Positions 55,550 through 59,084 of a stretch of 64,000 bases of DNA are shown here, in pieces; position 1 is the first letter of the stretch; each line of letters opens with the position of its first letter. Below the pieces are notes generated by a model. It ran no database searches. It saw nothing but the letters and a program-made list of their open reading frames with translations, and was not told the origin of the DNA. A program made the position numbers and the translations under genes. Where the stretch lies: contig NZ_SOBT01000009.1 in assembly GCF_004364935.1 (NCBI RefSeq), positions 271,994-335,993 on the forward strand, read 5' to 3'. The DNA comes from Panacagrimonas perspica. Its GTDB lineage: Bacteria; Pseudomonadota; Gammaproteobacteria; Nevskiales; Nevskiaceae.

Positions 55550-57046
55550 TTACATCACCTTGCGGAATTCCGCCGGCGGCACCTTCAACATGCGCCGGTA
55601 CTTGGTGACCGTGCGTCGCGCGATGCGAATGCCCTGCTGCTGCAGCAGCGCCGCGATATCCACGTCCGACAACGGCTGACTGCGGCGTTCCGCCCCGATC
55701 ATCCCGTGGATGATGTTGCGCACCGACGCCGCGCTGCAGGCAGGGCCGTCCTTGCGCGGCAGTTCGCGCGAGAAGAAGTGCTTGAACTCGAAGCACCCGC
55801 GCGGCGTGCTCATGTACTTGTTGCCGGTGGCGCGCGACACCGTCGACTCGTGCAGACCCAGCTCGACGGCGACGTCACGCAGCACCAGCGGCTTGAGCGC
55901 GATGTCACCCTGCTCGAAGAATGCGCGCTGGCGTTCCACGATGAATTGCGCAACGCGCAGGATCGTATCGAAGCGCTGTTCCACGTTGCGCACCAGCCAG
56001 CGCGCTTCCTGCAACTGCTGGCTCATCTGCGGATGCGCGCTGCGGCGGCAGCCACGGAACATGTCGACGTAGCTGCGGTTCAAGCGAGCACCGGAGCGGA
56101 TCGACGGGTTCAGCGCGGCCGTGAGCTTGCCCTTGGATTCGTAGACGATCACGTCGGGAATCACGTAGTCCGGCGCCTTGGCCTGGTAGCGGCTCGCCGG
56201 ATCCGGATCCAGCCTGCGGATCAGCGCCAAGGCTTCGCGCATCGCCTCTTCTTCACAGTCGAGCCGCTTGCGCAGGCTCTGGAAATCACGACGCGACAGC
56301 ACGTCGATGTGCTCGGTGAGAATCGTGCGGGCCAGCTCCAGCCCCGGCGTCTCCGGGTCCTTCGCGCGCAACTGCATCAACAGGCACTCGGTCAGCGAGG
56401 TGGCGCCGACGCCGACGGGCTCGAACGTACGCACCAGCGCGATGGCGGCCTGCATCTCCTCGGTCGTCATCGGCGGCGAGATCTCCACCTGGTCGAGCGA
56501 GGACTGCACGTCCTCGCGCAGGTAGCCGTCGTCGTCGAGCGTCTCGATGACGACCTCGGCGGCGAGCACTTCACGCTCGCTGCAACGCGAGGCGTAGAGC
56601 TGGCTGCGCAGGAAGTCGCGCAGTCCCCTGGTTTCACCGACCCAGCCGAGCTGAGGTCCGTCCTCGTCGCTCGACGCTGCGCCTGGCGTGCGCTCGAACG
56701 CAAAATCATCCGGCGGCGCATCCGACTGCAAGCCTTCGGCGCGCTCCACCATCGGATCGGCTTCGGCGAGCGCCGTGTTCTCCGTACCATCGGTGACCAG
56801 CGCGGCCGGTTCCATCATCGCGTCGGCGGTAGGAGCCGCTTCGGTGACGGCGTCGATATCGGGTGTGGCGGTCGAGGTTGCGGCTTCGACTTCCTCGGAT
56901 TCCTCGAGGAAGGGATTGGTCATCACCGAATTGCGCAGTTCCAATTCGAAGTCGACGGCGGAAAGTTGGAGCAAGCGGATCGCCTGCTGCATGCGCGGCG
57001 AGATCGTGAGGTTCTGTCTCGTGCCGAGTCCCAGTGATACAGACAT
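55550..57046 (-). CDS. rpoN: RNA polymerase sigma-54 factor, divergent
   Basis: A 498-residue sigma-54. Region I is recognisable but unusual: RQNLTISPRMQQAIRLLQLSAVDFELELRN. An acidic region II follows (about 50-140), then the core-binding domain and the DNA-binding helix-turn-helix (LHESTVSRATGNKYMSTPRGCFEFKHFFS). The RpoN box is ARRTVTKYRR (476-485) instead of the near-universal ARRTVAKYRE. AGGAGA before the ATG at 57046 fixes the start. It stands alone, without the usual yhbH/hpf, ptsN and lptB neighbours, so it is probably a second copy. Xanthomonads often have two rpoN genes. It must work with enhancer-binding proteins encoded elsewhere. Confidence 0.9.
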   Translation of the reverse strand: MSVSLGLGTRQNLTISPRMQQAIRLLQLSAVDFELELRNSVMTNPFLEESEEVEAATSTATPDIDAVTEAAPTADAMMEPAALVTDGTENTALAEADPMVERAEGLQSDAPPDDFAFERTPGAASSDEDGPQLGWVGETRGLRDFLRSQLYASRCSEREVLAAEVVIETLDDDGYLREDVQSSLDQVEISPPMTTEEMQAAIALVRTFEPVGVGATSLTECLLMQLRAKDPETPGLELARTILTEHIDVLSRRDFQSLRKRLDCEEEAMREALALIRRLDPDPASRYQAKAPDYVIPDVIVYESKGKLTAALNPSIRSGARLNRSYVDMFRGCRRSAHPQMSQQLQEARWLVRNVEQRFDTILRVAQFIVERQRAFFEQGDIALKPLVLRDVAVELGLHESTVSRATGNKYMSTPRGCFEFKHFFSRELPRKDGPACSAASVRNIIHGMIGAERRSQPLSDVDIAALLQQQGIRIARRTVTKYRRMLKVPPAEFRKVM

Positions 57047-57329
57047 ACGGTCTCCTGATTCCAGTTTTTGGATGAGTGTTCTGAACCGTTCATGGCAATG
57101 CCCATGCCATCGCCGGATCACGTCGGAGCGGCGTATCCCGTGATCCGGAGAAGCGGCCGGCATCACGCTCGCAAGCTGCATGGCGCCTGCACGTGCGGCT
57201 TGCATCCTGCGCGGAAGATGCACGCCACCGTCACCCGGGGGAAACGGAAACTCCTGCAATAACAACGACACTCGGAGACGACTGCCATTGGCACGATGCG
57301 TGGAACCAGAACAGCGGACGACATGCTCG

Positions 57330-57468
57330 CGTGACGTCCGGACCGCCCCCCAGACGGTCCTGCAGCGGCCTCTCCTCCCTGTGCGGCCGCTGCTGGAGTG
57401 AACATGTTTCGATTGCATGTTCGTTCCATGTTCAGAGAGGCAGCTCCCCGGCTGCCTCTCTTTTTTTT
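57330..57468 (+). ncRNA. Candidate structured small RNA with C-rich loops
   Basis: Four consecutive hairpins on the plus strand: 57340-57345 with 57355-57360 (loop CCCCCCAGA), 57362-57370 with 57385-57393 (9 bp, loop TCTCCTCCCTGTGC), 57400-57406 with 57416-57422 (loop TTTCGATTG), and the terminator 57434-57444 with 57451-57461 (loop TCCCCG, then eight T). No open frame on this strand ends here, so the terminator is orphan. Three loops carry runs of C able to pair with ribosome-binding sites, as in Xanthomonas sX13 and the CcsR-type RNAs (recalled). The 5' end is a guess; no promoter was identified. Confidence 0.5.
57434..57468 (+). terminator. Strong Rho-independent terminator without an upstream gene
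   Basis: A perfect 11-bp stem (AGAGAGGCAGC and complement), six-base loop and eight T. The nearest upstream plus-strand gene is clsB, 2 kb away and behind the oppositely read rpoN, so this terminator implies an unannotated transcript. Confidence 0.85.
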
Positions 57469-57579
57469 GTCCGGCCGGCCGTGCGCGTTGCGCGTGTATC
57501 CCGCCGCACCGGGCACATTCCTTGAGGACTCCGTTGCTGCAGAACTACGGAAAATCACTCAAGCAAAGGAGTCATCTCG

Positions 57580-58035
57580 ATGAAGAACAACCAGGAAGCT
57601 GTTTCCACGCTCAACAACCTGATCGAAATCTCGCGCGACGGCGAGATGGGGTTCATGGCCGCCGCAGAGAAGGCGGATGACCCGGGTCTCAAGAGCCTGT
57701 TGCAGGATCGGTCGCGAAGCTGTGCCAGTGCGACCAGCGAATTGCAGGGTCTGATCCGCTCACTGGGCGGAACGCCCGAAGACAGCGGCACCATTGCTGG
57801 CGCCGTCCATCGCGGCTGGACCAAGGTCCGCGCCGCGGTGGGCGACAACAATGTCGCGGTGCTCGAGGAAGTCGAGCGGGGCGAAGACGTCGCCAAGAGC
57901 GCTTACGCCAAGGCGCTGAAGGCCGATCTGCCCGCCGACATTCGCCAGACGATCGATCTGCAGTACCAGGGCGTGCTGCGCAATCACGACCGCGTGCGCG
58001 ATCTTCGCAACCAGTACCGCGCGTCGAAGCACTGA
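57580..58035 (+). CDS. PA2169-family four-helix-bundle protein (DUF2383)
   Basis: A 151-residue helical, ferritin-like protein of the PA2169 family (AVSTLNNLIEISRDGEMGFMAAAEKADDPGLKSLLQDRS, then ATSELQGLIRSLGGTPEDSGTIAGAVHRGW and LEEVERGEDVAKSAYAKAL). The Gly-rich turn and RGW are typical. There is no signal peptide. Members are stress- or stationary-phase-induced, and the biochemical role is unknown. AAGGAG eight bases before the ATG supports the start. It is followed by an intrinsic terminator, so it is transcribed alone. In P. aeruginosa the family's namesake lies near the glg/tre genes and Ku, as here. Confidence 0.9.
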   Translation: MKNNQEAVSTLNNLIEISRDGEMGFMAAAEKADDPGLKSLLQDRSRSCASATSELQGLIRSLGGTPEDSGTIAGAVHRGWTKVRAAVGDNNVAVLEEVERGEDVAKSAYAKALKADLPADIRQTIDLQYQGVLRNHDRVRDLRNQYRASKH

Positions 58036-58172: not shown

Positions 58173-59084
58173 ATGGCAAGACCCATCTGGACCGGCGCGA
58201 TCTCGTTCGGCCTCCTGAATATCCCGGTTCAGCTCATGCCGGCGGAACGGCGCATCGATCTGCGTTTCCACATGCTCGACAGCCGCAACCAGAAGCGCGT
58301 GCGCTACGAGCGCGTGAATGCCGACACCGGCGAGGAAGTGCCGTGGAAGGACGTCGTGAAGGCTTTTGAATACAGCAAGGGAAATTACGTGGTACTCGAA
58401 GAAGAGGACATCCGCAACGCCGCACCTGAGAGCAAGGAGTCGGTGGACATCGAGGCCTTCGTCGATCCCGAAGAGCTCGGCCCGATGTATTTCGACCGTC
58501 CCTACTACCTGGTGCCGACCCGAAAGTCGGAGAAGGGCTATGTCCTGTTGCGCGAGACGTTGCGGGATCTGAAAAAGGCCGGGCTTGCGCGCGTCGTGAT
58601 CCGTACGCGCGAGCATCTGGCACTGGTCCTGCCGGACGAGGAGGCGCTGGTGCTGCACCTGCTGCGCTTCCCGCAGGAACTGGTCGATCGCGACGAGTAC
58701 AGCTTTCCGGGCAAGAGCGACCGCAGCTACAAGATCGCGCCGCGCGAGCGCGAGATGGCGCGCCAGCTCGTGTCGTCGATGTCCGCACCGTTCAAGCCGT
58801 CGGACTACCGCGATGAATTCCGTGACCGTCTTTCCAAGGTCATCCAGGCGCGCGTGAAGGCCAAGGGCAAGGGCAAGAAGCGCGTGGAGCCCGTGACCGA
58901 TGCTCACGACGAACATCAGGAGTCCGGCAAGGTCGTCGACTTCATGGCGCTGCTGAAGAAGAGCATCGCGGACAACAAGCGCACGCCGGCTGCGACGAAG
59001 AAGGCGGGGGCGAAAGCAAAGAAGACCGCGGTGGCACGACGACACCCGGCTCCTGCGCGCAAGGCGAAGGCGCGGGCACGTTGA
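58173..59084 (+). CDS. ku: Non-homologous end-joining protein Ku
   Basis: A 303-residue bacterial Ku, which forms a dimer ring on DNA double-strand ends. It has the start MARPIWTGAISFGLLNIPVQL and the core blocks HMLDSRNQKRVRYERVN, GYVLLRETL and MSAPFKPSDYRDEFRDRL. Residues after about 255 form a Lys/Ala/Arg-rich tail of the type that binds DNA and recruits ligase LigD. AGGAG nine bases before the ATG fixes the start. The partner ligase LigD is not in the window. It is placed after a terminator, so it has its own promoter. Its neighbours are stress genes. Confidence 0.95.
   Translation: MARPIWTGAISFGLLNIPVQLMPAERRIDLRFHMLDSRNQKRVRYERVNADTGEEVPWKDVVKAFEYSKGNYVVLEEEDIRNAAPESKESVDIEAFVDPEELGPMYFDRPYYLVPTRKSEKGYVLLRETLRDLKKAGLARVVIRTREHLALVLPDEEALVLHLLRFPQELVDRDEYSFPGKSDRSYKIAPREREMARQLVSSMSAPFKPSDYRDEFRDRLSKVIQARVKAKGKGKKRVEPVTDAHDEHQESGKVVDFMALLKKSIADNKRTPAATKKAGAKAKKTAVARRHPAPARKAKARAR

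Follow-up and report, generated by a model that had tools for sequence, protein, structure and literature searches.

Locus and predicted fold

The window, i.e. the whole stretch of 64,000 nucleotides that was analysed, belongs to a genome of 5.4 Mb in 16 contigs (G000). The element described here lies on contig C2 of this genome, between a divergent rpoN paralogue and a DUF2383 gene, and a syntenic counterpart with the same neighbours is present in the same-genus genome G001. The region comprises the following features:

55550-57046, minus strand: divergent rpoN paralogue (Pfam Sigma54 AID, CBD and DBD), 82% identical in G001
57288-57304, plus strand: possible sigma-54-type -24/-12 site, TTGGCACG-ATGC-GTGGA, with 11 of the 13 defined consensus positions in agreement (two mismatches)
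57316-57339, plus strand: 5' hairpin, -10.2 kcal/mol, z -1.8, equalled by 10 of 200 shuffles
57340-57360, plus strand: hairpin 1, loop 57346-57354 CCCCCCAGA containing CCCCCC, z -2.5
57362-57393, plus strand: hairpin 2, loop 57371-57384 UCUCCUCCCUGUGC containing CUCCUCCC, z -4.9
57394-57428, plus strand: hairpin 3, loop 57407-57415 UUUCGAUUG without a C run, z -4.7
57434-57468, plus strand: hairpin 4 (57434-57461, 12 pairs, loop UCCCCG) with T-run, an intrinsic terminator, z -5.7
57580-58035, plus strand: DUF2383 gene (PF09537, E 3.5e-36)
58173-59084, plus strand: Ku gene (PF02735, E 2.6e-43)

The rpoN paralogue is one of three rpoN-like places in G000 found by PF04552 matches. It starts at 57046 and is the upstream neighbour of the element, in agreement with the initial annotation, which had seen no upstream gene on the strand of the RNA. 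The DUF2383 gene begins 111 nt past the T-run on the same strand as the RNA; its product is 89% identical in G001, where the gene adjoins the counterpart of the RNA. Genes for phospholipase-D-like, mechanosensitive-channel and BON-domain proteins are found within about five kilobases of the RNA, and the earlier mention of nearby “stress genes” is fair as a loose description, i.e. as a loose label only. Between the terminator and the DUF2383 gene, CCGGGCACATTCCTTG at 57509-57524 is identical in G001. This block resembles a sigma-54 site loosely and may be the promoter of the DUF2383 gene.

The predicted fold of 57340-57468 on the plus strand consists of four consecutive hairpins including the terminator. 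The minimum free energy of 57330-57468 is -69.5 kcal/mol compared with -42.4 ± 3.6 kcal/mol for dinucleotide shuffles (z -7.6, 0 of 200 as good), which upholds the description of four hairpins ending in a strong terminator. The complementary strand folds nearly as strongly (z -6.6), as expected because the region consists of inverted repeats; the T-run is found on one strand only, and the direction of the RNA is therefore plus. The minimum-free-energy and centroid folds are in broad agreement. A terminator scan of 57000-57700 returned one site where shuffles average 0.6, so that the scan by itself is not significant. The 5' hairpin had escaped the first reading of the sequence; G001 has a hairpin at the matching place (-7.0 kcal/mol, z -1.7).

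The loop motifs named at the outset were all recovered, CCCCCC in hairpin 1, CUCCUCCC in hairpin 2 and CCCC in the terminator loop. Thus, three of the four hairpin loops of the native fold are C-rich (CCCC or CUCC). Among 500 dinucleotide shuffles of 57338-57468, 354 had no such loop, 135 had one, 11 had two and none had three. The loop of hairpin 2 is the complement of Shine-Dalgarno sequences, and CUCCUCCCUG is mostly unpaired, with a mean unpaired probability of 0.80 in G000 and 0.82 in G001. We conclude that a small regulatory RNA is very probably encoded between the sigma-factor gene and the stress-type gene.

Conservation and distribution

In steps of 20 nt, G000 and G001 share an identity of 0.65-1.0 across 57347-57466 and mostly of 0.3-0.71 in the alignable flanks; the first three rows of this comparison are affected by where the G001 stretch was cut. 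A second conserved block outside the RNA spans 57507-57526 (identity 0.82). In hairpin 1, the six pairs are unchanged and the loop differs by one base. In hairpin 2, both sides of one pair differ and CUCCUCCCUGUGCGG is identical; in hairpin 3 three pairs are changed on both sides, one is changed on one side and one is broken, the loop region GUUUCGAUUG being identical. The terminator loop of G001 is two bases longer and carries CCC instead of CCCC. Among the 39 stem pairs in the alignment of the two-sequence model, four are changed on both sides, two on one side, one is broken and two are gapped; all pairs changed on both sides or on one still pair in G001. Sliding the partner by 1-3 columns reduced pairing to 36-57% of cells compared with 98.7% unslid.

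The covariation shuffle control was modest, the observed values being equalled in 31 of 500 shuffles; with just two sequences, no more is to be expected. The stem covariation that had been proposed as a check is thus present in four pairs changed on both sides next to nearly unchanged loops 1-3, at a strength that is limited by the two sequences and by the shuffles that equal it. An alignment including weak rows and fitted to the structure (A5) gave higher pair counts and was not counted as evidence. Indels of 1 and 2 nt within the conserved block disfavour a coding role. These data support the description of a structured RNA that has C-rich loops and ends in a terminator, with loop sequences that are kept and some stem pairs that change yet stay paired.

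A DNA search of 61 relatives gave matches in G000 and G001 and no others. The one-sequence model R1 found sure matches in 2 of 58 family genomes and nine more, weak ones up to E 1, and with the two-sequence model R3 the RNA was detected in 2 of 85 genomes of the order and convincingly nowhere else. Across the class, R3 matched 1 of 369 genomes, namely the own genome. Both models were run with strict filters, under which distant relatives may be lost. Several weaker matches were inspected and discarded. Of the nine weak R1 matches, the best two were examined: the top one in G012 (38 bits, E 3e-6) consists of UUCG-type hairpins by an isocitrate-lyase-like gene and lacks the CUCCUCCC loop, and the one in G062 (21.7 bits) appears by eye to be coding sequence; neither was recovered by R3 at E 0.1. 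Two weak new matches of R3 (25.3 and 24.1 bits) are devoid of C-rich multi-hairpins.

Within the genus, the RNA is present in 2 of 3 genomes. In the third, G002 (480 contigs), the RNA was not detected, and the most similar counterpart of this rpoN is no more than 40% identical. The regions preceding eight rpoN relatives, whose rpoN start could be located in 3 of 8, contained a T-run of at least 6 in 3 of 8 cases, none of them preceded by C-rich loops. The candidate looks like a narrowly distributed new case of a known regulator type, the RNAs with C-rich loops.

Known C-rich-loop RNAs and the polA-locus family

At curated thresholds, Rfam recognised nothing in the whole window. A sub-threshold search of 57050-57600 up to E 10 returned 10 matches. 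sX13 of Xanthomonas (RF02232, cut-off 50 bits), which the initial annotation had put forward, is absent from them, and the RNA does not lie at polA, which was found on contig C3. Like sX13, the RNA combines stable stems with apical C-rich loops, here in three of four loops. Unlike sX13 with its three stem-loops, it has four or five; its loop 2 differs and its loop 3 lacks C. According to PMC3771888, repression of targets through the C-rich loops of sX13 is experimentally shown, and G-rich ribosome sites are the expected pairing partners of these loops.

The CcsR/cuckoo RNAs of Alphaproteobacteria presumably share a CCUCCUCCC-type loop with the window RNA. The suggested search for a CcsR-like model remained without success, as no such family is among the matches up to E 10. 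The same matches in 57050-57600 likewise include none to RF02278, the Rfam family of S17 and the double-hairpin RNAs. S17 of Bordetella and the double-hairpin RNAs of Burkholderia resemble the window RNA in their C/U-rich unpaired stretches, which are expected to cover ribosome-binding sites (PMC11722255 and PMC5688073), but they occupy other loci and have another layout. In the preprint PMC11722255, S17 is described to repress a sigma-54 activator.

The closest Rfam family is anti-hemB/ncS04 of Burkholderia (RF02837), which covers the window RNA at 25.7 bits, below the cut-off of 49.5. Loop UCUCCUCCCUG and the terminator align over the full model, whereas hairpins 1 and 3 are additional in the window RNA and the locus is different. 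For ncS04, Hfq binding is stated in PMC5688073 to have been shown, and the RNA is further treated in PMC3521395. Literature searches, which covered few subscription journals, found nothing on a small RNA of Panacagrimonas, nothing on this RNA and nothing joining anti-hemB with sX13.

Between polA and engB, G000 encodes three tandem sRNAs, 226-227 bp apart, on the minus strand of C3 (G000:C3:371500-372079; L033:7501-8080). They match anti-hemB at 53.2, 49.7 and 48.1 bits, two over the cut-off and one just below, and two of them also match sX13 below threshold (23.5 and 21.1 bits). The polA-engB region is also where ErsA is encoded (PMC8575079). In the family, the anti-hemB model matches 58 of 58 genomes at E 0.1, many of them weakly, and 15 over the Rfam cut-off, compared with 6 and 0 of 14 control genomes. 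In all 7 family loci that were inspected, including the own one, the copies adjoin polA, with genes named by sequence motifs. When folded singly, most copies form four hairpins whose loops are C-rich. In an alignment of 45 copies (47 script-found candidates minus the counterpart of the window RNA and minus one duplicate), CUCCCU is invariant, and the computed consensus has three helices without hairpin 1. The model of these 45 sequences, R2, matches 93 of 274 class genomes at E 0.01 (e.g. L117-L145), including the own genome, where about three are expected by chance. For 16 chosen R2 loci from 15 genomes, a polA or engB motif lies nearby in 13, and one of the remaining three has a hemB-like motif. 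Anti-hemB and sX13 may accordingly belong to a single superfamily.

Further elements of similar appearance were noted. The compact two-hairpin RNA at L160:4299-4378 (G093:C22) carries loops of the CUCCCCUCCCUC and CUCCCUCCC types, is followed by a T-run and has no polA or engB motif nearby. Low-scoring anti-hemB matches at L074, L081 and L090 (G034:C40, G013:C19 and G029:C2) show by eye several C-rich loops before a terminator and are possibly further dispersed sRNAs of this design. Among the lower R2 matches in G000, three of four were looked at, one being C-rich and two being ordinary terminators. C-rich hairpins before a terminator are located just past a coding sequence at L146:1045-1182 (G000:C1:798044-798181; R2 29.8 bits), possibly a 3'UTR sRNA. 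In G001, the polA-type copy at C4:7936-8025 (L089:1937-2062) lies in 7 kb without a polA or engB motif, with a DUF2383 homologue about 2 kb away.

The polA-engB tandem sRNAs of G000 share with the window RNA several hairpins with C-rich loops, one of them with CUCCCU, and a terminator. They differ in being three tandem copies at the polA locus. The window RNA might be a dispersed and diverged paralogue of this anti-hemB/sX13-like family of its own genome, an ancestry that would be compatible with the function proposed below. The alignment over the whole anti-hemB model with the shared loop sequence (E 7e-4 in 551 bases, 0.0017 over the genome) is consistent with such a descent. With the model of the window RNA, too, polA-locus copies (24.6 and 20.7 bits) come second only to its counterpart in a set of loci chosen to hold them, and the G001 copy on C4, at 41 bits with the Rfam model, is a dispersed copy of the polA type. 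Against this, R2 gave no match to the window RNA up to E 10 with filters on and scored it at 9.9 bits in 1000 bases once the filters were off, and a search of the whole family with the model of the window RNA under strict filters brought up no polA-locus copy at E 1 or better. Inspection by eye of 19 lower-ranked Rfam matches revealed several C-rich elements and other, ordinary terminators with similar scores. We therefore regard this ancestry as doubtful. As far as one can tell, the window RNA works like the polA-locus group, and it is not filed as a member.

Proposed action and promoter

We consider it likely that the element encodes a free-standing, trans-acting sRNA whose C-rich loops bind several mRNAs at their Shine-Dalgarno sequences and keep ribosomes from loading. 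The RNA would be about 130-155 nt long and transcribed from the plus strand from about 57314 to 57468. The main C-rich loop displayed by its stable stems would be CUCCUCCC of hairpin 2, joined by the C runs in hairpin 1 and in the terminator loop. Pairing of these loops with the purine-rich Shine-Dalgarno sequences of several mRNAs would hinder the ribosomes from loading, so that the putative repression would be exerted in trans.

Loop 2 holds the reverse complement of the octamer GGGAGGAG, which occurs 55 times on both strands of G000. With an ATG 3-9 nt downstream it is found 16 times in G000 and 19 times in G001, compared with 2 occurrences of the reversed control pattern in each genome. 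Given this excess before ATGs, loop 2 matches a group of strong ribosome sites, which would be true of any anti-Shine-Dalgarno sequence. The places give frames of more than 25 amino acids in 12 of 16 cases in G000 and in 17 of 19 cases in G001. Among these frames, no target shared between the two genomes was found at E 1e-4 in a comparison by which sites differing in one base would be missed, and we therefore propose no target with confidence. The stretch GGTGGGAGGAGAGACGTCATGAGG is common to L180 (G000:C2:891886) and L200 (G001:C68:9119). In G000 it lies where a kinase-like gene ends, ahead of a response-regulator-like gene (both named from sequence), and it may be kept for coding reasons.

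The calculated pairing of loop 2 is -9.6 kcal/mol with the rpoN start, -7.4 kcal/mol with the DUF2383 start and -9.5 kcal/mol with the Ku start, compared with a median of -9.2 kcal/mol for 2000 random 50-mers of the window. The strongest pairing of the remaining loops with local starts is that of loop 4 with Ku (-12.9 kcal/mol), for which the background median, calculated for loop 2 only, does not apply. Since loop 2 pairs with the adjacent gene starts at background level, a multi-target repressor acting in trans is favoured over local control. The earlier idea of a trans-acting regulator that pairs with ribosome sites is thus sound in view of the octamer counts before ATGs, while the starts of the neighbouring genes lend it nothing beyond background.

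The consensus of sigma-54 promoters is YTGGCACGN4TTGCW. In the candidate site at 57288-57304, the -24 part is perfect and the -12 part is degenerate, reading GG where GC is usual in G000 and G001 alike. The aligned place in G001 reads GGCACG-GAGC-TTGG, so that GGCACG and TTGG are kept. The spacing rule for sigma-54 promoters would place the transcription start near 57314, i.e. 2 nt upstream of the 5' hairpin. When up to 3 mismatches are allowed, the window contains 56 sigma-54-like sites where 61.8 are expected, which is no enrichment, and 4 of them have 2 mismatches. A sigma-70-like site was not matched in 57000-57700. The site at 57288-57304 may be regarded as a weak lead to the promoter of the RNA. 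The tie to the divergent sigma-54 gene considered in the initial annotation is accordingly suggestive at most, one weak site pointing to it.

A different role would be that of a cis-acting leader, in which the DUF2383 transcript begins with this RNA and the terminator serves as an attenuator controlling read-through. The common strand, the distance of 111 nt between the T-run and the ATG and the order of the two elements kept in G001 are in line with such a leader. A competing terminator fold is absent from both the minimum-free-energy and the centroid fold, however, and the separate conserved block CCGGGCACATTCCTTG could hold the DUF2383 gene's own promoter. In addition, ten loci of DUF2383 homologues outside G000 and G001, inspected by motif scan and by eye, have no such upstream element. 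We consider the leader unlikely. It is quite improbable that the region has no regulatory function and merely holds inverted repeats or terminators between rpoN and DUF2383, for although both strands fold strongly and one terminator-like site is found where shuffles give 0.6, the statistics of fold and loops, the identity of loops next to changed stems and the T-run on one strand only argue against it.

Returning to the trans-acting repressor, we can envisage, as a speculation of low probability, that an sX13/anti-hemB-type sRNA was copied out of the polA locus, gained a sigma-54-type promoter next to the extra rpoN and is now the post-transcriptional arm of the regulon of this sigma factor. 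If this were true, the RNA would shut down the translation of a set of mRNAs whenever the extra RpoN is active.

Our findings add a well-supported sRNA candidate for Nevskiaceae. Beyond this single RNA, they give a testable picture of a polA-locus sRNA family with a CUCCCU loop that occurs in many gammaproteobacterial families, sometimes in tandem, and whose members in Nevskiaceae match anti-hemB and, weakly, sX13. In PMC3771888, it was left open whether polA loci elsewhere encode RNAs of the sX13 type, and the polA-locus family described here bears on this question.
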